Shown piece after piece: positions 44,637 to 63,981 of a DNA stretch of 64,000 nt. A program made the position numbers and the translations under genes. The DNA comes from Sphingobium amiense (GTDB lineage: Bacteria > Pseudomonadota > Alphaproteobacteria > Sphingomonadales > Sphingomonadaceae): assembly GCF_003967075.1 (NCBI RefSeq), contig NZ_AP018664.1, forward strand, positions 558,001 through 622,000, given 5' to 3'. How positions within the stretch are numbered: position 1 is the stretch's first letter; every line of letters starts with the position of its first letter. The notes beneath the pieces are model-generated. The model did not search any database and was not told where the DNA came from. It was given only the letters and a program-made list of their open reading frames with translations.

Positions 44637-44654
44637 GGATTATACGGGCGTATC
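44637..44654 (-). promoter_or_regulatory. Box B site 1
   Basis: Minus strand GATACGCCCGTATAATCC, with perfect arms ATACG-CC-CGTAT and TATAAT. It points to lpdA, 112 nt away. The core GATACGCCCGTATAAT is identical to box B site 9. Confidence 0.7.
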
Positions 44655-44772
44655 GCGGCGGCGGCATTCGATGTTGTCTTCTGTGGCGCCAACCGTCAAA
44701 ATCGGGTGTACGTTCGATGCGTCTCACGTTCCCTATCGGAAAAGCGACGGCGGCAGCACAAAGGAGTCCGCG

Positions 44773-45165
44773 TTGCGAGAGACGCCCCTGATCGCGATCG
44801 TTGACGATGATGAGCCATTACGCCTCGCGCTCGGCAATCTGTTGCGCTCGGCTGGCTATGACGTCGAGCTTTTCGAAGACGCGGAACACATAATGGATGG
44901 CATTTCCCCAGGGCAATACGACCTTGTGCTCACCGACTATCGAATGCCCGGTGCCAATGGTGCGGAGCTGACCTCGTCGATACGCGCTAGTGGCTGTGTC
45001 GCGCCGGTTATTATCATGACCGCTCAATCCCTCGCCGAAGTCGAGATCGAAGCGCGCGCCGCCGGCGCCGTCACTTGCATCAGGAAGCCCTTTGATGAAG
45101 ATGGGTTCCTCGACATCATCAAGGAATCTCTCTCGCGCGCGCCGGACGGCAACAGGAAAGCGTGA
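44773..45165 (+). CDS. Single-domain response regulator (orphan receiver)
   Basis: Receiver-only protein of 131 residues. Acidic DDDE at 11-14, phosphoacceptor Asp55 in LVLTDYRMPG, Thr in IMTA and Lys in CIRKPF. No output domain or neighbouring kinase. The TTG start at 44773 has AAAGGAG six bases upstream. It is similar to the receivers at 5783-6154 and 53392-53784, which also lack outputs, suggesting small cross-talk or sink proteins. It is divergent from lpdA, with box B site 1 between. Confidence 0.87.
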   Translation: MRETPLIAIVDDDEPLRLALGNLLRSAGYDVELFEDAEHIMDGISPGQYDLVLTDYRMPGANGAELTSSIRASGCVAPVIIMTAQSLAEVEIEARAAGAVTCIRKPFDEDGFLDIIKESLSRAPDGNRKA

Positions 45166-45374
45166 GGAAAATTATTCCGGCAGCCTGAATCTGTTTGGAC
45201 CATTCGCTCGGAGCGACTGCTCCTCGAGTCCCCCATGCACTTCGGCAGATTGACAATAGGTGCCGCGGCCGGACCTGGCGACCGGGGCGGGTGCGCCAGT
45301 ATCCCGTAGGCTGGGCTGGGAGTGGCCCGGCCGCGACACCATCGACGATCACGAGGGGGGGCGGGGGAGTGATC

Positions 45375-45392
45375 GCCGAAGCCGTACAATTT
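45375..45392 (+). promoter_or_regulatory. Box B site 2 (weak)
   Basis: GCCGAAGCCGTACAATTT: a degenerate left half and TACAAT. Weak member; no gene start is nearby. Confidence 0.3.
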
Positions 45393-45532
45393 CGGAGAGC
45401 AACGCAGACAAAGAGCAGGCCAGGTCGACCCGGCCAAACCAACGCTGCTGACCTCCAGCCGCCTCGATCCATTTCTTGTTGAACGGTGCCGGAGCGAGCT
45501 TGGCCAACTATGGTCCCGGCCCGCACTCTCAA

Positions 45533-45550
45533 CAATTATACGTGCGTGTA
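45533..45550 (-). promoter_or_regulatory. Box B site 3
   Basis: Minus strand TACACGCACGTATAATTG, matching 17 of 18 bases of box B site 15 (TACACCCACGTATAATTG). It points to lower coordinates, where no clear gene was seen. Confidence 0.6.
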
Positions 45551-45620
45551 CGGGGAATCACTGGCTAGCTCAGACAATTCTGCTGTGTATCGCAGGAAAG
45601 CGCACGGAGCGCGTTTGGGC

Positions 45621-45638
45621 GATATTACCGTATAATTG
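45621..45638 (+). promoter_or_regulatory. Box B site 4
   Basis: GATATTACCGTATAATTG. It lies 97 nt before the hypothetical gene start at 45736. Confidence 0.65.
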
Positions 45639-45735
45639 CGTCTTCCAGCAAATTTATCCCAAGTTGGCCCCGGTTACTTTCTGTCCCTGCGCGCGCCTTT
45701 GTCGCAGCGGTTGTGAGCAATTGCGGGAGAGAGAC

Positions 45736-46227
45736 ATGTTCCTCGACGGAGATACATGCTTCGTGGCGCCAGCCGCCAAATGCCGCGCGCCGCAGATTTC
45801 CGCCGAATTTACCGGTTTGTTCAATGCGCTCGAGCGGCAAGTGATCGCACTTGGGCAACACGATGACCGCTTCAGTATCATGCCGCGCGAAGGTTGGTTC
45901 TGGACTGTCTCATCGCTCTTCACGAAGCCAGCTCCGGGCCTCGCCAATGCGCGACTCGAGGCACTCCGGCGGCTAGTGGTCTCGTTGCGCTTTGCCCCCG
46001 CCGAGGCAATGGGGGAGACCCTCGCAAAGGCGGCCGAGGCGGGGCTCTCACCTGAACAAATTTCGGCAATCATCGTCCTGATGGATGCAGCGCGTCCTGA
46101 TCGCTATCGCTGGGTGCCGGCCTGGATTCGAGGCGCCGGAACAAGCAGTCGCGTGCGGAAGACCCTAGCTGCTGAACTTTGCGATAGCTGTCGCCGACTT
46201 CCGGAGGCCGACAACATTCGTCTCTAG
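45736..46227 (+). CDS. Hypothetical protein
   Basis: Protein of 163 residues that I do not recognise. It has no signal peptide or membrane segment. The first half is mixed (MFLDGDTCFVAPAAKCRAPQ, then ISAEFTGLFNALERQVIALGQHDDRF), and the middle is helical (LANARLEALRRLVVSLRFAPAEAMGETLAKAAEAGLSPEQ, in pieces), with an aromatic EGWFWTVSSLF and RYRWVPAWIRG. The ATG at 45736 has GGGAGAGAG upstream. Box B site 4 lies 97 nt upstream, which supports it as a real gene in the same control set. Confidence 0.65.
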   Translation: MFLDGDTCFVAPAAKCRAPQISAEFTGLFNALERQVIALGQHDDRFSIMPREGWFWTVSSLFTKPAPGLANARLEALRRLVVSLRFAPAEAMGETLAKAAEAGLSPEQISAIIVLMDAARPDRYRWVPAWIRGAGTSSRVRKTLAAELCDSCRRLPEADNIRL

Positions 46228-46318
46228 CTGACGCCAGTCGACGCCTGTCAATCATTGGCTCGCGGCGCAATTCGATTAAAACGGTCGATCGCCACTCAAC
46301 GTCGCCCGCCTCCCAAAT

Positions 46319-46336
46319 TACACCTTCGTATAATGG
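46319..46336 (+). promoter_or_regulatory. Box B site 5
   Basis: TACACCTTCGTATAATGG. It points toward the LytTR remnant at 46740-47036, but the coding stretch between is on the opposite strand; it may be the promoter of an ancestral intact gene. Confidence 0.6.
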
Positions 46337-46426
46337 TGAAGAAACGCCAACGCGGCAAACCGTAACCGCTTGCCCTATTAGCCCCATGACGGCCGACGGT
46401 TGGCGAGCTTGGTCGCGAGACGCCGT

Positions 46427-46753
46427 TCAGACGCCGGCAGGACTATCGATCAGGAGAGCGATTTTGCCCTTAAGGTCGCTGAGCTTGCGCTCGATTTTGG
46501 CCGCCGACATCGTTCCAAGGCTGTCTGAACCTTTACGCTCTCGGCCGGTAGGTTCTCCTTCGATCAGATCGGCGCACCGGCCCGAAGCAAGATTGGCGAT
46601 CGCGGAGAGGCTGCGCAGCGATCGCATGGCTTCGTGCAGGTTTTCCAAAGCGAGCCACTTCGTGCAGGCCGCTGCATGCAGTCGGCCGATCCAGGCCAGC
46701 CTGCCGGCGTCTCGCTGGACCGGGACGAGCGCGACTGGCCTGCCCCACGACAT
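46427..46753 (-). CDS. Small protein of unknown function, WI-LH-AAC-WL type
   Basis: Protein of 108 residues. The block LAWIGRLHAAACTKWLAL matches RTWITSLHLAACRRWLSH in the protein at 50451-50819 (W-I-x-x-L-H-x-A-A-C-x-x-W-L), so the two are distant paralogues. The pattern suggests a helical bundle; Cys is conserved. The ATG at 46753 has GAGGG eight bases upstream. It overlaps in antisense the weak N-terminal part of a plus-strand frame whose only recognisable piece is the LytTR remnant further on. The conserved block makes this strand the likelier coding one. Confidence 0.6.
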   Translation of the reverse strand: MSWGRPVALVPVQRDAGRLAWIGRLHAAACTKWLALENLHEAMRSLRSLSAIANLASGRCADLIEGEPTGRERKGSDSLGTMSAAKIERKLSDLKGKIALLIDSPAGV

Positions 46754-47036
46754 CGGCGCGGCCCTCGAGGCAGAGCGGGACTATATGCGGCTGCATATCG
46801 GTCGCCGCAGCTACATGCTCCACCAGACCATAACCGCGCTGGAGAAGGCGCTGGACCCCGCTCATTTCATCCGGTTGCGCCGCTCGACGATCGTTCGGCG
46901 CGACTTCATCAGGCGGCTCGGCCATAACGGCCTGGGCGCCTGGCAAGCGACGCTCGCCGACGACACAGCAATTCGGATTGGCCGATCCTATCTCGCTGCC
47001 GCCAAGCTATTGTTTCAGTCGCCTGATCGGTTGTGA
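46740..47036 (+). pseudogene. LytTR DNA-binding domain remnant
   Basis: The last 98 codons of a longer plus-strand frame read as the central and C-terminal part of a LytTR domain (EAERDYMRLHIGRRSYMLHQTI, LDPAHFIRLRRSTIVRRDFIRR, DDTAIRIGRSYLAAA in pieces). The first strand of the domain and any sensor part are missing, and the upstream codons are Arg/Ser-rich and antisense to the small gene at 46427. It is either truncated or starts inside that region. Box B site 5 lies upstream at the distance expected of a promoter for the original gene. Confidence 0.5.
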
Positions 47037-47083
47037 CAACTACGCCAGGCGGGATCCGGCAGATCCCAAGCGTCGCAAGCGGG

Positions 47084-47587
47084 TCAGACGATTGCCTTGA
47101 TTACCGTCTCGATCTTGGCGTCAAGGCCTTGGCCGATCTTGTCGATCTCCGCATTGCCGAGGCTGGCCAGAGCCGAAGACGGCCGATTATAGGAGATCAT
47201 TGCGTTCCCGCCGTCCGAATAGATCTGCACGCCGAAGGGCACGAGCAGACCAGCGCGGATGTCATGGGCGACGATCTGGGTCGCGATCAACGGATTGCCG
47301 ATCAGGTAGAGTGTGCATTCGCGTCGCTGGCCCTTGAGCGACGCCGTCGGCCCAAGATCGATTCGGAAGAAGATCATCATCCCGTGAGGTCCCTGCATCC
47401 GGCCGATTGTCGCTTCCGCATCGGACCATGTGGCTTGGTCGCGCACCAGCTGTTCCCCGATCGGGTGATCATAACGCCCGAGTTGGGCCTCGAACGCGGG
47501 CACCAGTTCCCGATAGGGTAGATCGCTCGTGAAGATCACTCGATCAAGCGACGAAGACATCGAAGTCGGTTGTGGGTCGATGTGCAT
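47084..47587 (-). CDS. DUF302 family protein
   Basis: Cytoplasmic protein of 167 residues with DUF302-like segments (SLDRVIFTSDLPYRELVPAFEAQLG, IGEQLVRDQATWSDAEATI, MIFFRIDLGPTASLKG, LYLIGNPLIATQIVAHDIRAGLLVPFGVQIYSD). The function of the family is unknown. ATG at 47587 has GGAG eleven bases upstream; longer frames have no support. Box B site 6 lies 95 nt upstream on the minus strand. It is divergent from the hydrolase at 47841, which has its own box B. Confidence 0.8.
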   Translation of the reverse strand: MHIDPQPTSMSSSLDRVIFTSDLPYRELVPAFEAQLGRYDHPIGEQLVRDQATWSDAEATIGRMQGPHGMMIFFRIDLGPTASLKGQRRECTLYLIGNPLIATQIVAHDIRAGLLVPFGVQIYSDGGNAMISYNRPSSALASLGNAEIDKIGQGLDAKIETVIKAIV

Positions 47588-47682
47588 CGCTACCGGTGCT
47601 CCGCAAAGGGGCCGCGGCCGCACAGGGGCCGGGACCAAGGTTGATGAACGCCCACCTGTTGAATTCCTGGTAAGCGCTCGCG

Positions 47683-47700
47683 CAATTATATCTGGGTGTA
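47683..47700 (-). promoter_or_regulatory. Box B site 6
   Basis: Minus strand TACACCCAGATATAATTG, 16 of 18 identical to site 15. It lies 95 nt before the DUF302 gene start. Confidence 0.65.
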
Positions 47701-47741
47701 ATCGGGCAATCCGGCCCCCGCGAGGTAGGCCAAAATACTTC

Positions 47742-47759
47742 GATACGCGCGTATAATTG
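47742..47759 (+). promoter_or_regulatory. Box B site 7
   Basis: GATACGCGCGTATAATTG with the perfect palindrome ATACGCGCGTAT. It lies 81 nt before the hydrolase at 47841 and 41 nt from site 6 on the other strand. Confidence 0.7.
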
Positions 47760-47840
47760 AGCGAACCGAACCGGGCGGCGATCTTGCGGGTACGGCGGCG
47801 GTTCGTTGCCCGTCCATCCTGAAAGGCGCGAGCAGCAGCC

Positions 47841-48710
47841 ATGACCGATACCCAAGCATTCACCGAGCACCTGATCACGCGAGAACAGGGCAAGCTCTAT
47901 GCGCGCGACTATGCCGGCGCTGGTCCGGCTTTCGTCATGATGCACGGCTTCCCTGACCACCTCGGCATCTATGATGCTCTAGTGCCTCACCTTGTGGCCG
48001 CCGGCCGCCGGGTCGTGACGTTCGACTTCCTAGGGTTCGGCAAGTCCGACAAGCCCGCTGGCGCAACTTACACGTTTGCCGACCAAAGCGACGATCTCGA
48101 GGCCGTCATATCCCAGCTCGACCTCGGGGCGATCGTCCCCGTCGCGCATGATTCCTCGGGGCCGACCGGCATCAACTTCGCGCTCGACAATCCCGACAAG
48201 GTCGCGGAACTCGTCATCCTCAATTCCGGCTATGACGATGCCAAGCCTATCCTCTGGCCGGAGCTTATTACGCTCTTTGCGACCGAGAGCCTGTCTGCGC
48301 TGGCGATGGCGTTTGCAACGGACCCGGCGCAGTTCGGCTGGCTGCTTGGCTGGCAGCAGACCAGGTTCACCGTCCTCCAGCCGCCGGAGCAGGCAGCCGG
48401 ATTCAGGCGTGAGATCGGCCAGCTGATCGCCGACAACTTTATTCAGCAACCGAGCAGCGGTCCGGCCTTCGTGCAACTCGTCGCGCAGTTTTTCCCTGAA
48501 CTGGCCCGCAACACCGAGAGGCTTCCCGAACTTGGCGGCCTGACAATGCCAGTGAAGGTCATCTGGGGCGAATTCGACCCCTACATCACGACTGAGGTCG
48601 GCCGCGACCGGGCGTCACATTTCAAGAACGCGAGGCTGACGCTGCTCCCGGCGGGCCACTGGCTGCAGTCCGACATGCCCGAAGCCGTCGCCAAGGAGAT
48701 GCTGGCATGA
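47841..48710 (+). CDS. Alpha/beta hydrolase with Asp nucleophile (haloalkane dehalogenase/epoxide hydrolase-like)
   Basis: Cytoplasmic alpha/beta hydrolase of 289 residues. The oxyanion loop is MMHGFPDHLGIYDALV, the nucleophile elbow VPVAHDSSGPTGINFAL has Asp, and the late acid-His region is VIWGEFDPYI...LLPAGHW. This resembles haloalkane dehalogenase- or fluoroacetate dehalogenase-type enzymes; the unusual HDSSGP elbow is noted. It has a relative at 56487-57386. It overlaps the small exported protein gene at 48707 by four bases and both precede a thiolase gene. Confidence 0.87.
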   Translation: MTDTQAFTEHLITREQGKLYARDYAGAGPAFVMMHGFPDHLGIYDALVPHLVAAGRRVVTFDFLGFGKSDKPAGATYTFADQSDDLEAVISQLDLGAIVPVAHDSSGPTGINFALDNPDKVAELVILNSGYDDAKPILWPELITLFATESLSALAMAFATDPAQFGWLLGWQQTRFTVLQPPEQAAGFRREIGQLIADNFIQQPSSGPAFVQLVAQFFPELARNTERLPELGGLTMPVKVIWGEFDPYITTEVGRDRASHFKNARLTLLPAGHWLQSDMPEAVAKEMLA

Positions 48711-49132
48711 GCCGACGAAACATCCTCGCGTTCGCGGCCGTGGCCTTGCTCACCGCTTGCGCCGCCGCGCCGGCACTTGCTCAGGCGGCGCCGGCAGCCC
48801 AGCCGCAGGATGCCGCCAAACCGCAGTTGATCACCCGAATCCTCGCGGTCGGAAAGCTGACAGAGAAGGCCACACCGGACAAGCTACCGGCGGTTTTGGC
48901 CCATGAGGTGCCCGCGACGCTCCAACTCTACCTTAACGGCAAGATCGCCGACTGGTATGCCAAGCCGGACCAGACGGGCGTCGTGTTCCTGCTCAACGTG
49001 ACGAGCGTCGAAGAAGCCCACGCGCTGCTCGAGGCTCTGCCGCTCGGTCAGGCCGGAATGATGACCTTCGAGCTGACGCCGCTCGGTCCGCTCCTGCCGC
49101 TCGGACGCCTGTTGCCGCTTTCAGCGAAGTAG
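48707..49132 (+). CDS. Exported muconolactone-isomerase-like small protein
   Basis: Protein of 141 residues with an N-terminal signal (MSRRNILAFAAVALLTACAAAPALA). LLTAC could be a lipobox, or cleavage may follow ALA; this cannot be settled. The mature part (LITRILAVGKLTEKA..., ADWYAKPDQTGVVFLLNVTSVEEAHALLEALP) resembles the ferredoxin-like fold of muconolactone isomerase or YciI-type proteins. The function is unknown. The ATG overlaps the stop of the hydrolase gene by four bases, so the two are coupled. Box B site 7 heads this transcription unit. Confidence 0.75.
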   Translation: MSRRNILAFAAVALLTACAAAPALAQAAPAAQPQDAAKPQLITRILAVGKLTEKATPDKLPAVLAHEVPATLQLYLNGKIADWYAKPDQTGVVFLLNVTSVEEAHALLEALPLGQAGMMTFELTPLGPLLPLGRLLPLSAK

Positions 49133-49180
49133 CGTTTGAAGGAGGACAGGGGCCAATCCACCCTCTGAAGGAGAGACGTC

Positions 49181-50374
49181 TTGCCCGCTCACGATCCCAT
49201 CGTCATCGCCGCAGCGGTCCGCACGCCACTAGGCCAGTTTCTGGGTGACCTCTCCCCGATCGCATCGCCCCAGCTCGGCGCTCAGGTCATCAAGGCGGCA
49301 GTCGAGCGTGCCGGTGTCGCGGCAGGCCAGATCAGCGAGGTGCTTATGGGATGTGTGCTGCCGGCAGGGCAGGGGCAGGCTCCGGCCCGCCAGGCTGCCC
49401 GGGCGGCCGGATTGCCCGACGGCACCGGCGCCACCACGATCAACAAGGTCTGTGGGTCGGGCATGAAGGCGACGATGCTGGGTCACGATCTTCTCGTCGC
49501 CGGGGCCGCCGAGATCGTCGTCACCGGTGGCATGGAGTCGATGTCGAACGCGCCCTATATGCTGGCCAAGGCCCGCACTGGGTACCGTGCCGGATCCGGT
49601 GAACTGCTCGATCACATGATGCTCGACGGGCTTGAGGACGCCTATGACAAGGGTCGCCCAATGGGCGACTTTGGCGAGGCGGCAGCCGCCGCCTATAGCC
49701 TCACGCGCGCAGACCAGGATGCTTATGCAATCGAGACTCTGAACCGCGCTCGCGCGGCAATCGACAAAGGATCCTTCCGCCCCGAGATCGTTTCTGTCGA
49801 GGTGCCCGTCAAAGGCGGATCGCGGCTGGTCGAGAATGACGAGCATCCGCTCAAGGTGTCACCCGAGAAGATTCCGCTGCTCAAGCCGGCGTTTCGACCA
49901 GACGGGACGATTACCGCCGCAAGCGCGTCTGCGAACGCAGATGGTGCGGCGGCGCTGGTGTTGATGCGTCGGTCGACGGCAGAACAGGCGGGTTTCCCAA
50001 TCCTGGCCGCGATAATCGGCCACGCCACGCACAGCCAAGCCCCCGAGTGGTACACCACCGCTCCCGCACCTGCGATCCGCAAGCTTCTCGCGAAAATTGG
50101 CTGGGGCATTGCCGATGTCGACCTGTTCGAGATCAACGAGGCCTTTGCGGTCGTACCAATGGTGGCAGCGATAGAGCTCGGCATCACCACCGAAATCATC
50201 AACATTCACGGCGGAGCCTGCGCGGTCGGCCACCCAATTGGTGCGACCGGCGCAAGGCTGATCGTGACTCTAGTTCACGGTCTCCGCGGCGCCGGCCTCA
50301 AACGCGGGATTGCATCGCTGTGCATAGGAGGCGGCGAGGCCACCGCGATTGCGATCGAAGTATCTGGCGCCTGA
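49181..50374 (+). CDS. Acetyl-CoA C-acetyltransferase (thiolase)
   Basis: Thiolase of 397 residues, full length. Nucleophile Cys91 in TTINKVCGSGMKA, base His in GGACAVGHPIGATGARL and second Cys in ASLCIGGGEATA. It condenses two acetyl-CoA or cleaves 3-ketoacyl-CoA. The TTG start at 49181 has AAGGAG nine bases upstream and gives the expected N-terminus. It follows the hydrolase pair after 48 bases and is probably in the same transcript. A role in degrading the acid or CoA products of those hydrolases is inference. Confidence 0.94.
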   Translation: MPAHDPIVIAAAVRTPLGQFLGDLSPIASPQLGAQVIKAAVERAGVAAGQISEVLMGCVLPAGQGQAPARQAARAAGLPDGTGATTINKVCGSGMKATMLGHDLLVAGAAEIVVTGGMESMSNAPYMLAKARTGYRAGSGELLDHMMLDGLEDAYDKGRPMGDFGEAAAAAYSLTRADQDAYAIETLNRARAAIDKGSFRPEIVSVEVPVKGGSRLVENDEHPLKVSPEKIPLLKPAFRPDGTITAASASANADGAAALVLMRRSTAEQAGFPILAAIIGHATHSQAPEWYTTAPAPAIRKLLAKIGWGIADVDLFEINEAFAVVPMVAAIELGITTEIINIHGGACAVGHPIGATGARLIVTLVHGLRGAGLKRGIASLCIGGGEATAIAIEVSGA

Positions 50375-50450
50375 GCATCTCATAGCTAGGGACGGGCCAA
50401 GACTTACGGACACTTTCCCCGGGGCCGTGCACATCTTGCGGTCCGCACGG

Positions 50451-50819
50451 TCATCTCTCCGCGTTGTTAATCCTGGTGGTAAGCGACCGTTCCAGTGATT
50501 CCATGAGCCGCCACATTATCGGTGACGTCTCCTCGGGCCGGATCACGGGCAGAGGACAGTCCGCCAAGCCTGCAGCCCCGTCCTCGTCTGACGAGGCGTC
50601 CTCCAGTGAAGCTACGATTCCGTGAAGCAGGTGCAACGTTGCCTCCGCTTCCACCAGACGCGGCGGTTCATGAGACAGCCACCTTCTGCAAGCGGCCAGA
50701 TGAAGCGAGGTGATCCAGGTCCGCGACGCTGGATCACCGGCAATTTTCAGCGCCTCCATTTCCGCTGTCGATCGCCGCTGAAGGTTCGCGATCAACGAAA
50801 GGCTGGAAGGTTGCATCAT
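50451..50819 (-). CDS. Small protein of unknown function, WI-LH-AAC-WL type
   Basis: Protein of 122 residues. The block RTWITSLHLAACRRWLSH is shared with the protein at 46427-46753. It is followed by a helical region (RLVEAEATLHLLHGIVASLEDASSDED) and an acidic middle. No signal peptide or membrane segment. ATG at 50819 has GGGAGGAACC six bases upstream. It is downstream of FecR (60-base gap) in the sigma-FecR unit, the place where a TonB receptor or effector would normally lie, which makes it a candidate partner of that system. Confidence 0.65.
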   Translation of the reverse strand: MMQPSSLSLIANLQRRSTAEMEALKIAGDPASRTWITSLHLAACRRWLSHEPPRLVEAEATLHLLHGIVASLEDASSDEDGAAGLADCPLPVIRPEETSPIMWRLMESLERSLTTRINNAER

Positions 50820-50879
50820 AGGTTCCTCCCTTTCTGTGGCCGACCGGCTGGCCGATGAAGATGCTGACAGCATCCTTCA

Positions 50880-53154: not shown

Positions 53155-53172
53155 TATACAGCCGTATCGTGG
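53155..53172 (+). promoter_or_regulatory. Box B site 8 (weak)
   Basis: TATACAGCCGTATCGTGG. The dyad half CGTAT is present but TATAAT is replaced by TATCGT. It lies 219 nt before the receiver gene at 53392. Confidence 0.35.
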
Positions 53173-53826: not shown

Positions 53827-53844
53827 GATACGCCCGTATAATGG
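53827..53844 (+). promoter_or_regulatory. Box B site 9
   Basis: GATACGCCCGTATAATGG, perfect dyad ATACG-CC-CGTAT plus TATAAT. It is 376 nt before the carbonic anhydrase start. Confidence 0.7.
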
Positions 53845-53972: not shown

Positions 53973-54220
53973 TCCCCGTTCGCGCAGGGGCCGTCCAGGT
54001 GAAGGGTGCGGCCTGCGGCCCAACCCTGCTGTGATGGCAACCTCGCTACCGCTGCCTGCGTCCGCCCAAACCCGACCTCGCATTTTCCTCGTAGTGCGGT
54101 CACGTCGAACGGGCTGAACGAAGCAGGCCTAAGCCCGCCCGCGCCTGCAATTCGACGGCTCGACGTCCGACATTACCCGCCACACACCATCTGCCAGTGC
54201 CTGAAAACATGGAGACTCAA

Positions 54221-54769
54221 ATGGACTTTCTTGAAACGATCACCGGACGGAACGAGGGATTTGCCTCGAGCGGCTTCGTCGAAGGGCTCAAGATGCTTCC
54301 CTATGAGAAGACGGTCATCATTGGCTGCGTCGATCCGCGCGTCGACCCGGCCGACCTGTTCGATCTCAAGACGGGTGAGGCTGTCGTTATCCGTAACGTC
54401 GGCGGACGCATCAACACGGCGCTGTTGGAGACAATGGCGATCCTCAGGACCGTCGCTGGCGTCGCCGGCAAGCCGATCGGCGATGGCTGGAATCTGATCG
54501 TGCTGCACCACACCGATTGCGGCATAATCCCGGCCCACAAGCACGCGCCTGAACTTCTCGCGAAGCACCTCAACGTGACTACGCAGGAACTCGAGCAGAT
54601 GGCGATCGACGACCCGTATGAAGCAGTCCGCCTGGATGTTGCGGCGCTGAAGGCCAACCCCAACCTTCCCGCGGGCTTCATGGTCTCGGGAGTGGTCTAT
54701 GACGTCGCAGATGGCAAGGTCGAGACCATCGTACCACCGACCCGTCTCCGTGAAGAGGCGGCGGCCTGA
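54221..54769 (+). CDS. Beta-class carbonic anhydrase
   Basis: Small beta carbonic anhydrase of 182 residues. Zinc ligands Cys36 (IIGCVDPRVDP), His97 and Cys100 (LHHTDCGI), with Asp38 and Arg40 forming the catalytic dyad, are all visible. It interconverts carbon dioxide and bicarbonate. ATG at 54221 has GGAG six bases upstream; in-frame starts at 54197 (GTG) and 54209 are alternatives. It is followed at once by an MFS exporter whose start overlaps its last codons' surroundings by only 20 bases of spacing, so the two form an operon. Confidence 0.9.
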   Translation: MDFLETITGRNEGFASSGFVEGLKMLPYEKTVIIGCVDPRVDPADLFDLKTGEAVVIRNVGGRINTALLETMAILRTVAGVAGKPIGDGWNLIVLHHTDCGIIPAHKHAPELLAKHLNVTTQELEQMAIDDPYEAVRLDVAALKANPNLPAGFMVSGVVYDVADGKVETIVPPTRLREEAAA

Positions 54770-54788
54770 CCAAACTGCGAGGTCGGTG

Positions 54789-56391: not shown

Positions 56392-56409
56392 TATACTGCC
56401 GTACAATTT
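56392..56409 (+). promoter_or_regulatory. Box B site 10
   Basis: TATACTGCCGTACAATTT. It lies 77 nt before the hydrolase at 56487. The -10 would be TACAAT. Confidence 0.5.
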
Positions 56410-56486: not shown

Positions 56487-57386
56487 ATGAACATGGATGT
56501 GGTTGGCGCGAAATCGGAACCTGTGACCGAGATCGGGATGATCGCCCTCGCGGATGGAATTTCAGTCCGCCGCATGGTCGCCCAGCCGGAATCACCCAAG
56601 GGCACGGTGATCCTGCTCCACGGCTTTCCCGAGACTCTTTACGCGTGGCGAGGCATCGCGCGCGCCCTGGCGGACGAATATGAGGTCCATACGTTCGATT
56701 GGCCGGGATACGGGCTTTCGACGCGGCCGTCGCCTGATGCCTTCTCTTATGCGCCGAGCAACTACGCCAACCTTCTCCGTCAATATATCTCCGCGGCGGG
56801 AATCGATCGGTCGAACCTCACCATCTATGCGACCGACATCAGCGGACTGCCGACCTTGCTTCTGGCGTTGCAAGAGCCGGATATCGCCCGCAAGATCATC
56901 GTCGGCGATTTTGCTCCGTTCAACCGGCCCGACCTTATGCATCCGGACCTGCGGGACCTGAAGGTAAAGCCGCTGTCGGAGCAGATCCGGGAAACATGGA
57001 ACGCCGCCTGGAATGACCTGGTTGAGGCCCGGGGCTTCGGCGCCGGGCTGCCGCCGGAAGCGCAATTCGATGTCGCTCGTGAGTTCAAGGACGACATGGC
57101 GCAGTCCTGGAAGCACAGCGATCTGACCACGATGGACGCCTTCTACCACTATTATTCCTATTTCACCCGCGACGAGGACTATTTCGAGCAGCGGGTCGGA
57201 GGCTTCTCGGCCCCGGTCAAGGTCGTCTGGGGCGAACTCGATCCCTACATTGACAAGGCAATGGGCGTGGAACTCGCGGAGCGACTGGGTGCCGAGTTCA
57301 AGCTTCTGCCGGGAATCGGTCACTATCCTCACAATCAGGCACCGGAGCAGGTCGTCGCGGAAATCCGCGACTCCTTCCTGCCGTGA
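56487..57386 (+). CDS. Alpha/beta hydrolase with Asp nucleophile (haloalkane dehalogenase-like)
   Basis: Alpha/beta hydrolase of 299 residues. The oxyanion loop is LLHGFPETLYAWRGIAR, the elbow LTIYATDISGLPTLLLAL has Asp, and VVWGELDPYID with GIGHYPHNQAP provide the acid and His. It is related to the protein at 47841-48710 in the elbow context and WGE-DPYI block. It is expected to act on halogenated or epoxide substrates, without direct proof. It overlaps or abuts the SnoaL-like gene (57401), 14 bases downstream. Box B site 10 heads the pair. Confidence 0.87.
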   Translation: MNMDVVGAKSEPVTEIGMIALADGISVRRMVAQPESPKGTVILLHGFPETLYAWRGIARALADEYEVHTFDWPGYGLSTRPSPDAFSYAPSNYANLLRQYISAAGIDRSNLTIYATDISGLPTLLLALQEPDIARKIIVGDFAPFNRPDLMHPDLRDLKVKPLSEQIRETWNAAWNDLVEARGFGAGLPPEAQFDVAREFKDDMAQSWKHSDLTTMDAFYHYYSYFTRDEDYFEQRVGGFSAPVKVVWGELDPYIDKAMGVELAERLGAEFKLLPGIGHYPHNQAPEQVVAEIRDSFLP

Positions 57387-57400
57387 CTACAGGGGTAACC

Positions 57401-57805
57401 ATGGGAGATACTTTTGTGAGCGCAGACAACAAGGCGATCGTCATCCGAGCTCTGACAGGCGTTTTTGTCGACAAGGATGCGGGCGTGGTCGACGAGATTT
57501 TTTCGCCGGACTACAAGCAGCATAACCCCGCGATCCCAAATGGGCGCGAGGCGATCAAGGCTGTCATTGGTTCTCTCGGCCCCGACTTCAAATACGAGAT
57601 CGGCATGGTCGCGGCAGAAGGCGAATATGTGATGGTGCACGGTCGATATACCGGCTGGGCACCTAACCCGATGATCGCAGTCGATGTCTTCCGTGTCGTT
57701 GACGGCAAACTCGCAGAGCATTGGGACGTCATGCAAGAAGAGGTCGTAGCCGCAGCCACCGCCTCGGGAAACGCGATGTTCACCAATCCTCAAGCGCTTT
57801 CATAA
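57401..57805 (+). CDS. SnoaL-like (NTF2 fold) protein
   Basis: Small NTF2-fold protein of 134 residues. NKAIVIRALTGVFVDKDAGVVDEIFSPDYKQHNP is the conserved helix and pocket start of SnoaL-like polyketide cyclases and ester cyclases, and EHWDVMQEEV the end. The substrate is unknown. ATG at 57401 has AGGGG seven bases upstream; a GTG at 57383 overlapping the previous stop is an alternative. It is the second gene of the hydrolase pair. Confidence 0.85.
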   Translation: MGDTFVSADNKAIVIRALTGVFVDKDAGVVDEIFSPDYKQHNPAIPNGREAIKAVIGSLGPDFKYEIGMVAAEGEYVMVHGRYTGWAPNPMIAVDVFRVVDGKLAEHWDVMQEEVVAAATASGNAMFTNPQALS

Positions 57806-57940
57806 TAACCAAAGCGCGCAAGTGACTTGATTTGCTATAACCTGGCCACGACTTGGCGTCCCGCCAGCGCGCGCTACCGCCTGTTGAAGCGCTTATTTTA
57901 TCCGGGGCGCCGAATTATCACGAGCAACCGGCAAGACTAT

Positions 57941-57958
57941 TGCACCAGCGTATAATGG
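57941..57958 (+). promoter_or_regulatory. Box B site 11
   Basis: TGCACCAGCGTATAATGG. It lies 92 nt before the hydrolase at 58051. Confidence 0.6.
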
Positions 57959-58050
57959 GACCAGCGAGCAAGATCGAATAGCGGTGCAGACACGGATTGA
58001 AGTCCGTCGCCCGGACTTTGTTATCCGGTTCCTGCACTAAAGGATTAGCT

Positions 58051-58848
58051 ATGAAATCTCTTCTCACCATTGCGGCAATGGCATTGGCCGCAACCTCCGC
58101 CACTCCCGCTCTGGCGAAGAGCAACGACAAACCGACCATCGTCCTTGTGCACGGCGCCTGGGAGACCGCCGGCGTCTGGGCCGAGGTGGAATCCGGCCTC
58201 GAGAAGGACGGATACAAGGTCAAGACGGTCAACCTCCCTGGTCGCGAAGGCAACCCGATGCCCGCAGGCGAGGTCACCCTCGACGCGTATCAGAAGGCGG
58301 TCGCGCAGGTGATCGCGGGCGAGACCAAGCCGGTGATCCTGGTCGGGCACAGCTTCGGTGGCTTCGTGATTTCGGCGGAGGGCGAGGCAGAGCCCGAGAA
58401 GATCAAGACGCTCGTCTACGTCGCCGCTTATCTTCCGCTCGACGGCCAGTCGTTGCTCGGCCTCGCGACCACCGATGCCGGCAGCAAGGCAGGCGAAGCC
58501 CTCATCATCGACAAGGACAAGGGTATCGCCGGCATCAAATATGAGGCGCGCGCCGGGCTCTTCGCGAACGGCGCGCCGGCTCCGGTCGGTGATGCCGTTG
58601 CCAAGGGTATCGTCGACGAACCCCTCCCGCCATTGACCATGCCCGTTCATCTGACTGCCGACCGCTTCGGTAAGGTCGACAAGGTCTATATCCACACGCT
58701 GCGCGACCAGGTGGTGAGCCCCCCCTTCCAGGCTCAGATGGTTGCGGCGACGCCCGTCCGGTCCGAACTCAGCATCGACACCGGCCATATTCCGTTCATC
58801 GTCAACCCCCCGGGCTTGGTGAAGCTGATCGAGGACGCCGCCAAGTAG
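58051..58848 (+). CDS. Exported serine alpha/beta hydrolase
   Basis: Alpha/beta hydrolase of 265 residues with a signal peptide (MKSLLTIAAMALAATSATPALA). Oxyanion motif VLVHGAWE, nucleophile elbow LVGHSFGGFV (Ser) and catalytic His in IDTGHIPFI. It is a clear paralogue of the protein at 9525-10319. ATG at 58051 has AAAGGA eight bases upstream; the frame is open to 57997 with no support. Box B site 11 lies upstream, whereas the paralogue is on the box A side, so duplicates are under different boxes. A terminator-like hairpin follows. Confidence 0.9.
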   Translation: MKSLLTIAAMALAATSATPALAKSNDKPTIVLVHGAWETAGVWAEVESGLEKDGYKVKTVNLPGREGNPMPAGEVTLDAYQKAVAQVIAGETKPVILVGHSFGGFVISAEGEAEPEKIKTLVYVAAYLPLDGQSLLGLATTDAGSKAGEALIIDKDKGIAGIKYEARAGLFANGAPAPVGDAVAKGIVDEPLPPLTMPVHLTADRFGKVDKVYIHTLRDQVVSPPFQAQMVAATPVRSELSIDTGHIPFIVNPPGLVKLIEDAAK

Positions 58849-58858
58849 GCGGCATTCC

Positions 58859-58887
58859 GTGGGCCGCTGGCTTTGCGAGCGGCCCAC
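58859..58887. terminator. Bidirectional terminator hairpin
   Basis: Perfect 10-bp arms GTGGGCCGCT and AGCGGCCCAC around a 9-nt loop, between the hydrolase stop (58848) and the convergent cysteine hydrolase (58952). AACCTTTC follows on the plus side. Confidence 0.6.
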
Positions 58888-58951
58888 AACCTTTCAACCA
58901 ACAATGAGCGGTCCGCGTCGAACGGCGTCCACACATCGGCGTCATTGGCGC

Positions 58952-59578
58952 TCAGACGGTTGCCTTGATCGCCCGCACCAATTCGTCGGTCGTCAGGACT
59001 TCATGTGCGTAGGTCGGCGCATCGATGTCCAGGGCAGCATGTAATGCTTCGGGCGAGCGGGCGGCCGTTCCATCCCGAACCAACGTCACGTGAAAGCCGA
59101 GTTCCATGCCGTACCGACCCGTCGCCTCGAGGCATGTGTTCGCGAGCAGGCCCACACAGATGATCTTTTCCCGGCCATAGGCCTTGAGCTGATGTTCGAG
59201 GTCCGTGTTGGGAAAGCCGCTCGACCCCCAGTGCTCCTTCACAAGAATGTCGCCTTCGAGCACCGGGAAATCAGGATGGAAAGTGCCGCCCCAAGTGTCC
59301 TTTGCGAACGCTTGCCGCTGTGCTGCGCCGAGCTGGTAGGGTGAAGGATACTTCCAGTTCACATAGTCGCCGGGTTCCCAGCGATGATGCGGGACATGGT
59401 AGATTTTGATCCCGGCCGCGCGAGCGGTGCTGACGATGGTCCGCAGATTGTCGAGAAGGTGATTTTCCGTGGCGATCTCCTCGACCCATGGCCAGAGTTT
59501 GCCGTCCTCCGAGAGGAAGTCGTTGTAGAAATCGATGCAGAGCAGGGCCGTGATCGACGGGTCATAGGTGGTGGTCAT
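58952..59578 (-). CDS. Isochorismatase-like cysteine hydrolase
   Basis: Cysteine hydrolase of 208 residues. Catalytic Asp in LCIDFYNDFLSEDGK and Cys in VGLLANTCLEATGRYGMELG. It is a close paralogue of the protein at 27061-27678 and a more distant one of that at 18026. GGTTCGACCATG precedes the start with only a weak ribosome binding site. It is divergent from the TetR gene at 59698, with a near-perfect 26-bp palindrome between, so it is the likely target of that regulator. Confidence 0.9.
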   Translation of the reverse strand: MTTTYDPSITALLCIDFYNDFLSEDGKLWPWVEEIATENHLLDNLRTIVSTARAAGIKIYHVPHHRWEPGDYVNWKYPSPYQLGAAQRQAFAKDTWGGTFHPDFPVLEGDILVKEHWGSSGFPNTDLEHQLKAYGREKIICVGLLANTCLEATGRYGMELGFHVTLVRDGTAARSPEALHAALDIDAPTYAHEVLTTDELVRAIKATV

Positions 59579-59626
59579 GGTCGAACCTCATGCGCTGGCA
59601 AGCGGCCTTATCCGTTCGCCTTGCAA

Positions 59627-59652
59627 AAATAGATAATAGCTATAATCTATTT
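59627..59652. promoter_or_regulatory. 26-bp near-perfect palindrome (putative TetR operator)
   Basis: Outer arms AAATAGAT and ATCTATTT (perfect) and inner ATAG/CTAT, broken only by one A on each side. It lies between divergent cysteine hydrolase (start 59578) and tetR (start 59698). It is AT-rich against GC-rich surroundings. Confidence 0.7.
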
Positions 59653-59697
59653 GAACAGCCCCCTTACGAGGGGAGGGCAGAAACCGAGGGTTTGAAG

Positions 59698-60243
59698 ATG
59701 GGACGCTCGTCCAATGAGCAGGCAACGAGAAACCGCGCGAAGATCGTAGACCGGGCCAGCGCGCTGTTTCGTCGCTCTGGCGTAGAGCCGATTTCGGTCG
59801 CCGGCGTCATGGCGGCGACCGGTATGACGGTCGGAGGCTTCTACAAGCATTTTGGGTCGAAAGATGATCTTGTCGCAGAATCCATGAAACTGGCATTTGA
59901 CGGATCTCTGCGTTCCTGGCGGGCGGCCTCATCGATAGTAGCCCACTATTTCGCTAAGAAGCCTGCGGACCAGACGTGCCCGATACAGGCGTTTGCGCCG
60001 TATGTTGCCGATGACGCGGCATCGCCCACATCGCGTGAGGCTTATGCCGAGGGGGCAAGAGCGCTGCTTGAGCAATTCCTGCGGCACGAGTGCGCTCCGA
60101 GCGCCGCGGATGAAGATCAAGGTGATCGCGGAAGGTTGCTATTTTCTGCGATGGTTGGAGCCGAATTTCTCGCGCGCGCTACCTATGGCGCCGACTGGGC
60201 GAAGGAGCTCCAGTCGGTTGTCGAAAGAGCTAGCAAAAACTAA
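59698..60243 (+). CDS. TetR-family repressor with conserved cysteine
   Basis: TetR regulator of 181 residues. HTH at about 14-58 (SVAGVMAATGMTVGGFYKHF). In the ligand domain Cys94 (QTCPIQAFAPYV) occupies the position corresponding to Cys103 in the TetR at 25041 and to NemR Cys106, so redox sensing is possible (inference). ATG at 59698 has GAGGG upstream; a frame from 59590 is open but unsupported. The adjoining 26-bp palindrome is probably its operator, controlling itself and the divergent cysteine hydrolase. Confidence 0.88.
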   Translation: MGRSSNEQATRNRAKIVDRASALFRRSGVEPISVAGVMAATGMTVGGFYKHFGSKDDLVAESMKLAFDGSLRSWRAASSIVAHYFAKKPADQTCPIQAFAPYVADDAASPTSREAYAEGARALLEQFLRHECAPSAADEDQGDRGRLLFSAMVGAEFLARATYGADWAKELQSVVERASKN

Positions 60244-60609
60244 AGAATTTCGAGGAGCCGGACCGTTTCTTCGTCTGGCCGTTTCATACCCAGCGCTCGA
60301 GAGAACTTGGCTGGTTCCGCCCCTTAAGCGGTTCGTGTGCCAATAGGCGTGCGATACACGAATATAATGTCCGGCTTTCGCCGTTCCCTGTAGCTCTTGA
60401 GTAGCCGTAGCGACACGAAGAATGAAGTGAAAACAATGTCTCGCCAAACCCGCCGCTCCACGCATGCCAGCCGGCCGAAAGCCGCCATGGCTCTTCGAAA
60501 GGGAGGTAAAATCACCAACCTGCCTTTCTTCAGTTGCGGGAACGGTTGGATCAGGGAAGCCTTCAATCGTGCGACTGCGAAAGCGATTCCCCATTCTGGA
60601 ACTGCGCTG
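60244..60609. other. Non-coding region upstream of retropepsin-like gene
   Basis: 366 bases holding box B site 12. An in-frame extension of the next gene back to 60397 is possible, but the codons there are Arg/Lys-rich and the signal peptide begins at 60610. Confidence 0.5.
60353..60370 (+). promoter_or_regulatory. Box B site 12
   Basis: GATACACGAATATAATGT. It is 239 nt before the start chosen for the next gene, 26 nt before the alternative start at 60397. Confidence 0.5.
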
Positions 60610-61539
60610 ATGCCGCGCTTCGTGACGGGCATGCTCGCCGGCGCCGCGTGCCTCCTGGGCGCTTCGCCGGTCTCTGCCCGCATGTCGTATGTCCCGGTCA
60701 AGCTGCGTGTCGTCTCGGGCGTCAGGCCGTTCGCTCCTGTCCGCGTGAACGGGAAGCCGTTCCTGTTCATGCTTCATTCGAACGCCAGATTCACCGTCAT
60801 GACGACCCACAAGAACGCCGCATTGGCCGGCGTCACCAACCTCATATTCAAGGACCATTATGGTATCAGTACGCCGGGCCAAGTGAGCAATCTCGGGCGG
60901 GCGAGCGCGACGCTGGAAAGGCTCCAGGTCGGCGATCGGACCTATTCGAAGGTGCCAGCGCTGATATTCGAAGTGCCCCAGGATCCGCCGATGGATGGAA
61001 TGCTGGGCATTACCTGGCTTCGGGAGCAGCATGTGATGCTGGACTATGGCCGCAAACGGCTGGGTCTTCCCCAGTCAGAAGAGGACACCGAAGCGGCCGA
61101 CCATAAGTTGTTGGCCGCAGGCTACAAGGCGCACAAGATGATCTTCGATAGCGCAGACAAGTCCTATTTTGTCGAAGGAACCATCAACGGCGTCGCAGTC
61201 AGGATCGGCGTCAACACCGTCGCCGAGAACGTCCTCGACGTGACGCTCGCGCGCACGGCCGGCGTCGAGCTGGGTCCGGTCGCCGACCATTATGGCGGCC
61301 CCGACGGCGCGCAGGGCGACGTCTATTTCCCAAAGCGCGATGTCGAAATCGCTATCGACGGCCAGGAAGCCGCCCCGATCCGACCCCAGATATTCGACAC
61401 CTATGCCTACGATTCCGCCCCGCGCCCGGCGACCAGCGACGCGGCCCATACGGCGAGACTTGGTGCTGACTTCATGATCGCGAACCGGGTTGTGATCGAT
61501 TTCGGTAGCGAAACGATATTTATCGGGCCTCAGCGGTGA
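60610..61539 (+). CDS. Exported retropepsin-like protein with lost catalytic residues
   Basis: Exported protein of 309 residues with a signal peptide (MPRFVTGMLAGAACLLGASPVSA). Two aspartic-protease-like half domains are visible: residues about 35-155 with VRVNGKPFLFMLHSNARFTV, where the catalytic D-T/S-G is replaced by His-Ser-Asn (56-58), and about 185-309 with INGVAVRIGVNTVAENV, where it is replaced by Asn-Thr-Val (202-204). The late motifs MLGITWLREQHVMLDY and LGADFMIANRVVIDFGS are well kept. Both sites lack the Asp, so it is unlikely to be an active protease; a binding role is inferred. The upstream extension to 60397 is not supported. Confidence 0.75.
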   Translation: MPRFVTGMLAGAACLLGASPVSARMSYVPVKLRVVSGVRPFAPVRVNGKPFLFMLHSNARFTVMTTHKNAALAGVTNLIFKDHYGISTPGQVSNLGRASATLERLQVGDRTYSKVPALIFEVPQDPPMDGMLGITWLREQHVMLDYGRKRLGLPQSEEDTEAADHKLLAAGYKAHKMIFDSADKSYFVEGTINGVAVRIGVNTVAENVLDVTLARTAGVELGPVADHYGGPDGAQGDVYFPKRDVEIAIDGQEAAPIRPQIFDTYAYDSAPRPATSDAAHTARLGADFMIANRVVIDFGSETIFIGPQR

Positions 61540-61720
61540 GCATGGTCAGCGGCTGCGGGGAAGGAATGGCTGCGGCGTGAATCTTGCGCTTGATCAGGTT
61601 GGCCGCGATTGCGCCGCCGGCCATGCATCCATGAAATGGTAGGAGCGGTCTTGCCGCATGGTCGGCAGGCGGCGCCACGGGCCGGTGGCCCGTCGCGCCG
61701 CGCGACTTATTAGGGACGCC

Positions 61721-63181
61721 TCAGAGTTCCAGAGCCTTCGCCACTCCCTCGCCATACGCGGGATCCGCCCGGTGGCAATTGCTGACATGCCGCTCTTTCA
61801 CAGCGCGCGAAACACCCTCCATCGCGCGCGCGGTGTTCTCGAACAGCACTTGCTGCTGGACGGGGGTCATCTTGCGGAAGAGGTTGCCGGGCTGGAGATA
61901 ATGATCGTCATCGAGCCGATGATCGTAATGCGTGGCCGCGCCACTCAAGGGTAGCGGCGGATTGGCGAAGGCCGGCTGTTCCTCCCACTCGCCGCGCGAG
62001 TTGGGCACATAGGCGAGCGTGCCGCCGTGATTGCCGTCCACCCGCATCAGCCCGTCGCGATGATAGGAATGCGCGGGACACCGCGGGGCGTTGACCGGAA
62101 TCTGGTGATGGTTCACGCCCAGACGATAACGCGCGGCATCATTGTACGCGAAGAGGCGCGCCTGCAGCATCCGATCCGGCGAGAAGCTGATGCCTGGCAC
62201 GATCGTCGACGGCGCGAACGAGGCCTGCTCGACATCGGCGTAGACATTCTCCGGGTTGCGATTGAGCTCGAACACGCCAACCTCGATGAGCGGAAACTCG
62301 CCATGCGGCCAGACCTTGGTCAGGTCGAAGGGGTTGACCGGATGCTCGGCGGCCTGGGCTTCGGTCATGACCTGGACGTACATCGTCCAGCGCGGAAACT
62401 CGCCCTTCTCGATGCTGGTATAGAGGTCGCGATGATTGCTCTCGCGGTCCAGCCCGACCAGCTGAACCGCCTCCTCGTCTGAGAGATTGGCGATGCCCTG
62501 CTGCGTCTTGAAGGTGAATTTCACCCACACGCGTTCGTTAGCTGCGTTGATGAAGCTGTAGGTATGGCTGCCGAAACCATGCATGTGGCGGAAGCTCCTG
62601 GGGATGCCCCGCTCGCTCATGACGATCGTCACCTGGTGTAGCGCCTCCGGCAGCATGGTCCAGAAATCCCAGTTGCTCTCCGCGCTGCGCAGCCCGGTGC
62701 GCGGATCGCGTTTGATCGCATGGTTGAGGTCGGGAAAGCGCAGAGGATCGCGGAAGAAGAACACCGGGGTGTTGTTGCCGACCAGATCCCAATTGCCCTC
62801 GTCCGTGTAGAATTTGAGCGCGAAGCCGCGGATGTCGCGCTCCGCATCCGCTGCGCCGCGCTCGCCCGCTACGCTCGAAAAGCGCGCGAACATCTCGGTC
62901 TTCTTGCCGACCTCGGCAAAGATGCTGGCCTTGGTGAAGCGGGTGATGTCGTGCGTCACCGTGAACGTGCCGAACGCGCCGGCCCCCTTGGCGTGCATCC
63001 GGCGCTCGGGGATGACCTCGCGATGGAAATGCGCCAGCTTCTCGATCAGCCAGACATCCTCGAGCAGGGCTGGGCCGCGCGGGCCCGCGGTCTCGATATT
63101 GAAATTGTCGGGAACCGGAGCGCCAGCGGCGGTGGTAAGCCTTTTGTCGGCTGCGATTGGATCATTCTCGGACATAGTCAT
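61721..63181 (-). CDS. katA: Small-subunit (clade 3) heme catalase
   Basis: Monofunctional catalase of 486 residues, the size of KatA-type enzymes. The distal His lies in [15 protein letters not shown], the distal Asn in [13 protein letters not shown], and the heme-ligand Tyr in [15 protein letters not shown]. It breaks down hydrogen peroxide and binds NADPH. GGGGAATG stands just before the ATG. It is alone on the minus strand, with box B site 13 lying 57 nt upstream, the distance expected of a promoter. The window holds a second, large catalase at 13026 that is on the box A side. Confidence 0.95.
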
Positions 63182-63238
63182 TCCCCGATCGTTGGACGAA
63201 GCATTCGCACCGAGGATGATCCTGCGTCGACGGGAATG

Positions 63239-63256
63239 GAATTATACGATGGCATC
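63239..63256 (-). promoter_or_regulatory. Box B site 13 (katA promoter)
   Basis: Minus strand GATGCCATCGTATAATTC, 57 nt before katA. Its extended context GACGATGCC...TCGTATAATT recurs at site 14. Confidence 0.65.
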
Positions 63257-63581
63257 GTCTTGCGGGGGAGCGCCGCAATTTTCCGATCGATCCGCAGTTC
63301 TTTATCGGGCCGATTACCGCCCATCGAACATCCGGATTTTAAACGCTCGGCCGGGAACGGCCTGGTAGTGTGGATTCAGCTGTTCTCGGACGGGTAGGGG
63401 AGGGCCGAGGTGACCTGCCAACCTAGGCTCTACTCAAACTCGTTGGACGCGACCGGGTCGCTTGCCGGGAACGTATCTTCAAGCGCTCGATCCAGTCTCC
63501 GATCCACAGCATCGCCTTGCTTCGGCTGCCTCACGCTTCTTGGCGTCGACCGCCGCCCGGGAGAGACTCGCGGCACTTTCT

Positions 63582-63770
63582 TCATCCCTTGTCTCCTGCC
63601 TTGGCCCTACGAACAGAGGCGGTTCCCCCTTTCGATCGCTGCCGATATGTCGCGAGAGAGCGAACATCCTGAACGCTTTCGGGCCGCAAGCGGGCAGCTT
63701 GCCAGTATTGCGCAACCGCCTTGGCCGCCGCTTTCACGTCGTCGAACGGATGAAAACATTGGCAGGACAA
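63582..63770 (-). CDS. Possible small protein
   Basis: Frame of 62 codons with a TTG start and no clear ribosome binding site. FDDVKAAAKAVAQYWQAARL and ESVQDVRSLATYRQRSKGG have a protein-like amphipathic pattern, unlike nearby frames. Box B site 14 is only 12 nt before the start, so a message would be nearly leaderless. It may equally be chance. Confidence 0.25.
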   Translation of the reverse strand: MSCQCFHPFDDVKAAAKAVAQYWQAARLRPESVQDVRSLATYRQRSKGGTASVRRAKAGDKG

Positions 63771-63781
63771 AGAATTGATGG

Positions 63782-63799
63782 AAATTATACGAAGGCATC
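63782..63799 (-). promoter_or_regulatory. Box B site 14
   Basis: Minus strand GATGCCTTCGTATAATTT, nearly the same as site 13, in a region without a secure gene. Confidence 0.55.
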
Positions 63800-63963
63800 G
63801 TCAGCCGTGCAGATTTCGAGGCCGTCAGGCTTGCCATGCCCGTCCGTCTCGACCTCGGAACCTCACCCGCGTCAACACCAGCACGGCGCGCCGTCATATC
63901 CCGTCAATTACAGTGATTGCCGGGCGGGCCGCAGATGCTGAGGTGCCCAGCGACGTTGTTCGC

Positions 63964-63981
63964 TACACCCACGTATAATTG
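63964..63981 (+). promoter_or_regulatory. Box B site 15
   Basis: TACACCCACGTATAATTG, the best-preserved member of the TACAC-type sites. It points out of the window; the gene it serves lies beyond 64000. Confidence 0.65.

Follow-up and report, generated by a model that had tools for sequence, protein, structure and literature searches.

What reads the 18-bp element, here called Box B, that is repeated along part of a 64,000-nucleotide stretch of Sphingobium amiense DNA (NCBI RefSeq assembly GCF_003967075.1, contig NZ_AP018664.1, positions 558,001 to 622,000 of the forward strand; hereafter the window, whose numbering is used throughout), and where would transcription begin at the promoters that carry it? 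A sequence-only reading of the window had taken Box B for a short dyad fused to TATAAT, with TATAAT as a promoter -10 embedded in an operator, and had named a LytTR protein and a sigma-FecR pair among the candidate regulators. In our analysis, Box B is probably the predicted operator of a FixJ/StyR-type response regulator (RR) encoded at 6203-7033, which would act under the PAS kinase encoded at 7154-9271 in the class II activation of a stress/detoxification regulon. The repeat, its clustering, its tie to the clade of this RR and the position of a -10 signal downstream of the element were computed directly.

The Box B repeat and its distribution

Box B consists of the dyad TAYAC-N4-GTRTA plus ATKG on the gene side. 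Fourteen places in the window match the consensus KATACNCNCGTATAATKG at up to 3 mismatches, all of them inside 44637-63981, whereas 100 dinucleotide shuffles of the window gave a mean of 0.39 matches and at most 2; the repeat described by the sequence-only reading is therefore real and far beyond chance. Scanning the whole 4.77-Mb genome with KATACNCNCGTATAATKG yielded 29 matches, 16 of which are clustered within 23 kb (C1:602637-625405), and this cluster runs 3.4 kb past the window end with two extra matches at 67175 and 67388. Since the same pattern read backwards gave 27 matches genome-wide, the 13 matches outside the cluster look like background. The earlier statement that no sites occur in 1-44 kb holds at the stringency of KATACNCNCGTATAATKG but not for variants, which are present at 9420 (plus strand) and 7093 (minus strand). 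Both of these are among the 11 genome matches to a related pattern, TAHACSNNNGTATARTKG, at 0-1 mismatch, all of which fall in C1:565093-625405 (7093 to 67405 in window numbering); at 2 mismatches this pattern did no better than its control over the whole genome (31 matches in all vs 35).

The copies carry different flanks each, and TATAAT is nearly invariant among the sites of the island, where it is kept more strictly than in a distant set of sites (see below). Four of the 14 sites (44637, 47683, 47742, and 53155) are inside the early-start portions of called reading frames; the others are intergenic. Genes were called by codon-position G+C with the earliest start taken, so that distances to start codons are rough; 44637, 47683, and 47742 are likely intergenic once the likely true starts are used. 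An iterated matrix drifted to any palindrome and was abandoned, and a fixed 13-site matrix was used in its place.

A one-mismatch search across the genus found matches in 49 of 94 genomes, and the 29 loci that we read by eye had them mostly within reading frames. An exception among these, in another genome of the genus (L025, at about 1501-1518), is a TATACCACCGTATAATTT site with a receiver-type gene 78 nt downstream. Three genomes of the genus (L016, L018, and L037, again at about 1501-1518) have a palindrome like TATACG-N2-CGTATAA before genes that, by eye, resemble those for Rieske dioxygenases; this is perhaps the site of another regulator with a similar operator.

A candidate regulator and its relatives in other genomes

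A domain scan of 11 proteins from 1-44 kb, plus the proteins from 41 kb onwards, returned a single response regulator with a DNA-binding output domain of its own, the RR at 6203-7033 (minus strand), a protein absent from the earlier list of candidates. It has Pfam Response_reg and GerE matches, i.e., a receiver followed by a LuxR-type helix-turn-helix (HTH), and its gene is flanked by that of a PAS/HisKA/HATPase sensor histidine kinase (7154-9271, minus strand; 705 aa, with a PAS region ahead of a single HisKA and a single HATPase domain), the proposed partner, and by an adjoining gene for a single-domain receiver (5783-6154, minus strand). For the receiver-only response regulator encoded between Box B sites at 44671-45165 (plus strand), the scan found no output domain. 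Of 397 genomes from the family, 55 contain relatives of the RR at E ≤ 1e-40, and at this cut the S. amiense genome itself gave one match (6 of 63 candidates were scored there).

We then compared 20-kb loci at 20 of the best RR places in the family with 20 control loci from the same genomes (385 and 383 kb in total). At a threshold of 10 bits or more, there were 43 Box B sites in the RR loci and 10 in the control loci (Mann-Whitney p = 1.4e-4), when the reversed matrix gave 1 and 3, and Markov shuffles 10.4 and 9.8, respectively; at least one site was present in 17/20 RR loci and 9/20 control loci. Several of these sites stand before genes of the kinds seen in the window: 72 and 76 nt before catalase genes (L074 and L080), between a hydrolase gene and the RR (L073), and, in several loci, before receiver, RR or kinase genes. 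In L086 (7317-7371), we also saw two inverted Box B-like sites before a gene with cNMP-binding and Pyr_redox_2 domains. Comparing the gene neighborhoods (phmmer E ≤ 1e-8 among our own gene calls) revealed that, of the 20 RR loci, 16 share the window's kinases, 19 have relatives of the RR (weak ones in two cases), 10 have the hydrolase of 67592, and 4 have catalase. Near-relatives of the LytTR protein, of FecR, and of each of the two extracytoplasmic function (ECF) sigma factors were found in 1/20 RR loci each, and no near-relative of either TetR protein, the MarR protein, or the LysR protein turned up in any of the 20.

For a wider test, we searched genome contigs with the RR alignment and used the best 80 of 586 confirmed places, which include loci from Bradyrhizobium, Rhizobium, Azospirillum, and Duganella, and from metagenome-assembled genomes (MAGs) labelled Acidobacteria and Eremiobacterota. 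At 11 bits, the merged sites numbered 86, compared to 17 for the reversed matrix and 25.8 for Markov shuffles; unmerged, there were 98 hits (reversed matrix: 17) against about 45 in single-base composition shuffles, a poorer control than the Markov shuffles. In most of the 80 loci the start of the RR is near 10 kb, and 52/86 merged sites fall in the five 1-kb bins 7-11 around it (reversed matrix: 4/17). Some of the sites are almost perfect; one example, TATACCAACGTATAATTG, is next to the RR in an Acidobacteria MAG (L126). An unseeded count of dyads in the 5-13 kb part of the 80 loci found TATAC-N4-GTATA 9 times (0.02 expected) and CATAC-N4-GTATG 12 times (0.08 expected); related loci inflate these counts, and the list is topped by coding-type repeats (in the whole-locus set, by runs of N), so that the Box B dyad stands out by its ratio to expectation and not by first rank.

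Several results weigh against this link. At 10 bits, sites are missing from three of the 20 RR loci in the family and present in nine control loci. Of the 76 loci where an RR was recognised, 29 have no site within 3.5 kb. When dyads were counted without a seed in the family loci, that of Box B did not reach the top ten. Another 20 loci, all of them around RRs (mostly 39-48% identical) except for one hydrolase locus, gave 14 sites at 11 bits (2 with the reversed matrix, 6.8 in shuffles), when the first 20 had given 29; the link between the RR and Box B thus weakens with distance. In favour of the link, the pattern TAHACCNNSGTATRRTKG has 6 matches in 4 of the 397 family genomes, and all 4 are among the 21 with an RR at E ≤ 1e-50 (hypergeometric p = 6e-6 at this cut, which was set afterwards, and 3e-4 with the 55 genomes at 1e-40), but only one genome (G150) is independent, because the others are S. 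amiense itself and two with sites in loci already read (L086 and L089). None of the 4 genomes with hits to the reversed control are among the 55 with an RR at E ≤ 1e-40. Taken with these reservations, the FixJ/StyR-type RR with its kinase is most likely the regulator that would act at Box B, since the element is enriched near RR relatives while relatives of LytTR and sigma/FecR, the candidates of the sequence-only reading, are rare there.

The probable place of the promoter -10 and how Box B may act

To locate the -10, we scored 116 sites (island: 18; family: 28; distant: 70). Palindromic duplicates that overlapped were left out, as were near-duplicates by downstream sequence in the family and distant sets, sites with truncated context, the site at 80631, which is not part of the island, and locus L113, which comes from the genome that also supplied L074. 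Outside the dyad, the strongest -10-like signal starts at +38 from the first base of the element in all three sets (island: z = 3.9; family: z = 3.6; distant: z = 5.6). It is the best of about 160 offsets, and in the pooled score beyond the dyad only +38 (6.7) and +39 (2.4) exceed 1.9, with smaller bumps elsewhere in single sets (e.g., island +76: 2.8). An A at +39 together with a T at +43 was present in 27/116 sites (23%; mean 4.3% and maximum 11% elsewhere; binomial p = 5e-13), a count that is no independent test because +38 was first noticed in the A+T profile of an overlapping set of sites; the control-locus sites had this pair in 0/12. Among gene-oriented dyads found with a symmetric matrix (n = 106), a -10 at +38 occurs in 8%, over a baseline of 1.5%. 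The score for a -35 ranks first at +15 (T-K-G), which is in part built into the matrix, and the signal at +38 sits 17 nt after this TTG/TGG in each of the three site sets. In eight related Bradyrhizobium promoters, CTAG/ATAG is kept at +37/+38 while the flanks vary. These eight loci (L125:7405, L129:7341, L147:7341, L151:7684, L162:7657, L181:7665, L186:7292, and L191:7328) have tandem dyads about 42 nt apart, AAACCTAGGTATAG or a close form upstream of TTTACCTCCGTACAATTG or a close form, as a conserved double-site promoter.

The signal at +38 argues that TATAATKG is probably a promoter-proximal half-site that runs into a weak -35 (TTG/TGG), and not itself the -10. The layout fits a class II activator promoter, with a putative activator site overlapping the -35 and a -10 about 17 nt further on. 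In the mechanism that we propose, the kinase 7154-9271 would control the RR, and a dimer of the phosphorylated RR would occupy the dyad TAYAC-N4-GTRTA, whose centre would fall near -43.5 and whose proximal half (GTATAAT) would run into the weak -35 at element positions 16-18. There the RR would contact RNA polymerase, and transcription would proceed from the weak -10 that starts 38 nt after the first base of the element; a -10 so placed would put the start some 32 nt beyond the end of the element. The regulon would comprise the catalase, several alpha/beta hydrolases, the lpdA-like, carbonic anhydrase, DUF302, and LytTR proteins, and the RR itself. With catalase, hydrolases, and redox genes in it, the regulon may respond to oxidative or xenobiotic stress. 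Binding by the RR, its phosphorylation, and activation rather than repression are steps that we infer.

The sequence-only reading had placed the regulator on the -10 itself, TATAAT being a promoter element without a -35, and parts of the evidence lean that way. TATAAT hardly varies among the island sites, a constraint not expected of a plain half-site, and TAnnnT is found on the gene-proximal side of 42/106 gene-oriented dyads and on the distal side of 24/106 (family set alone: 7 vs 8 of 22). The score at +38 is below zero at 7 of the 18 island sites (46319, 47683, 57941, 60353, 63964, 67175, and 67388), and a second, smaller -10 peak lies at +52 (7% of the 106 gene-oriented dyads). Were TATAAT the -10, a -35 would be expected to start about 13 nt before the element. 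We found no -35 signal 16-18 nt upstream of TATAAT, where offset windows, which overlap, rank it 120/123 for the pooled sites and 90/123 for the island alone; the absence of a -35 there, as the earlier reading had it, suits an activator-dependent promoter without one. The signal at +38, however, was found outside the search matrix, at the spacing from TTG/TGG given above in all three sets, and the conserved CTAG/ATAG of the Bradyrhizobium promoters stands at the same place. We therefore consider the embedded -10 unlikely, though the idea of a regulator-dependent class of promoters built on a short dyad is supported.

The same RR might instead repress at some or all Box B sites by blocking RNA polymerase, as StyR does from its low-affinity sites STY1 and STY3 (PMC2442086); a constant placement near -43.5, together with a weak -35 and -10, is more in keeping with activation, and we regard repression as improbable. 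It is still less probable, and in our judgement quite improbable, that Box B belongs to another regulator of the island (the LytTR protein, the ECF sigma/FecR pair, or a TetR, MarR, or LysR protein). The genes for these lie in the same window, and a Box B copy precedes the LytTR gene, yet 17/20 RR loci have sites while the relatives of these proteins are as scarce there as described above. That the repeat is a product of chance, or a mobile-repeat artefact without a regulatory role, can be practically dismissed given the excess over shuffles, the different flanks at each copy, and the presence of this dyad in comparable positions in other genera.

By sequence, the best relative of the RR in the PDB is 1yio ('response regulatory protein'), which we take to be StyR, followed by FixJ. 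TodS-like kinases have two transmitters; the island kinase, with 705 aa and one HisKA and one HATPase domain, is not of the long TodS form. TodS-like kinases are described as longer, and StyR-like regulators as possibly recognising ATAAACN4GTTTAT, with Lys175, Val176, and His179 as putative contacts (PMC5874301). The RR resembles StyR and TodT in its receiver and LuxR-type HTH, and Box B has the same N4 spacing and AC-N4-GT core. Box B differs in its half-site, TAYAC as opposed to TAAAC, i.e., by one base per half, though TAAAC half-sites occur in relatives. In an alignment with 1yio, the island RR keeps Lys175 and Val176, whereas His179 is Ala. StyR activates PstyA through STY2, near -40, and acts as a repressor at other sites (PMC2442086); the predicted Box B centre at -43.5 was derived from the -10 signal at +38. 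The island has a large stress-type regulon and not one catabolic operon. FixJ, of the same NarL/FixJ superfamily and the second-best solved relative, has TIE in its recognition helix where the island RR has TVK, and Box B is unlike the FixJ sites, given as GTAMGTAG or GTAGTTTCCC (PMC4999443). The RR scored 191.3 bits with the NCBIfam FixJ model, below its cut-off of 255. Because the operator and one recognition residue differ, we do not class the RR as a member of StyR or FixJ, though Box B would work like a StyR-type class II site. A residue-to-base code between the RR recognition helix and the half-site, sought with helices read by eye, led nowhere.

Sites and genes of the island

The variant TAAACGAACGCATAGTTG (7093-7110, minus strand) lies 60 nt before the called start of the RR gene, which makes autoregulation possible, and the variant TACACCTATGTATAGTGG (9420-9437, plus strand) lies 73 nt before the alpha/beta hydrolase gene 9510-10319, the product of which is a paralogue of that of 57997-58848 (61% identical). 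Two weak Box B-like sites are uncertain: one (24968-24985, plus) is 38 nt before a TetR-type gene and the other, a palindrome (29349-29366, minus), is between a glutathione S-transferase gene and a short-chain dehydrogenase/reductase gene. In the main cluster, the leftmost copy (44637-44654, minus) points at an lpdA-like gene with a likely start at 44524, counted from its translation. Copies at 45621-45638 (plus) and 46319-46336 (plus) point at a gene of unknown function (45664-46227) and at the LytTR-domain gene (46386-47036), respectively. The copy at 47683-47700 (minus) points at a DUF302 gene (likely start at about 47587, likewise counted), and that at 47742-47759 (plus) is 82 nt before the alpha/beta hydrolase gene 47841-48710. 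Further on, a weak site (53155-53172, plus) is followed by one 353 nt upstream of the carbonic-anhydrase-like gene 54197-54769 (53827-53844, plus), a weaker one 78 nt before the alpha/beta hydrolase gene 56487-57386 (56392-56409, plus), one before the alpha/beta hydrolase gene 57997-58848 (57941-57958, plus), and a weak one before the aspartyl-protease-like gene 60397-61539 (60353-60370, plus). The catalase gene (61721-63181) has its copy 58 nt upstream (63239-63256, minus), and the last copy in the window (63964-63981, plus) points past the window end at the gene 64318-64890 (extended numbering), 337 nt off.

Four pairs of copies are divergent: 45533 (minus) with 45621 (plus), 47683 (minus) with 47742 (plus), 63782 (minus) with 63964 (plus), and 67175 (minus) with 67388 (plus). 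Two strong members of these pairs, 45533-45550 and 63782-63799 (both minus), point at no recognisable gene, which weighs against our proposal; small RNAs or short proteins downstream of them are possible. Just past the window end (L011:12137-16887), another PAS histidine kinase is encoded near an IS21 pair and an integrase frame of the phage type that has no match to a catalytic domain; this is possibly the border of the island. As a marker of the island, the hydrolase of 57997 was uninformative (found at E ≤ 1e-60 in only 2/397 genomes, S. amiense included).

Among operator spellings in the open-licence literature, only that of the TodT consensus matched, and no paper that we surveyed there by topic, through titles and the starts of abstracts, describes a site of the Box B type. 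We tentatively suggest, as a possibility somewhat short of an even chance, that a large FixJ-type clade, seen by record title in three bacterial phyla (two of them via MAGs) and with a recognition helix TVKxxR followed mostly by Gly, Ala or Ser, shares the operator code TATACC-TA-GGTATA. In this sphingomonad the operator would have multiplied to about 18 sites within a single island with its own sensor, regulator and regulon, which would make the island a self-contained, transferable stress regulon. Reading promoters by eye can mislead, as a TATAAT may belong to an operator without serving as the -10. For a repeat that looked like an orphan, the analysis proposes one specific regulator, and it offers an operator code, open to testing, for a FixJ-type subfamily that is widespread.

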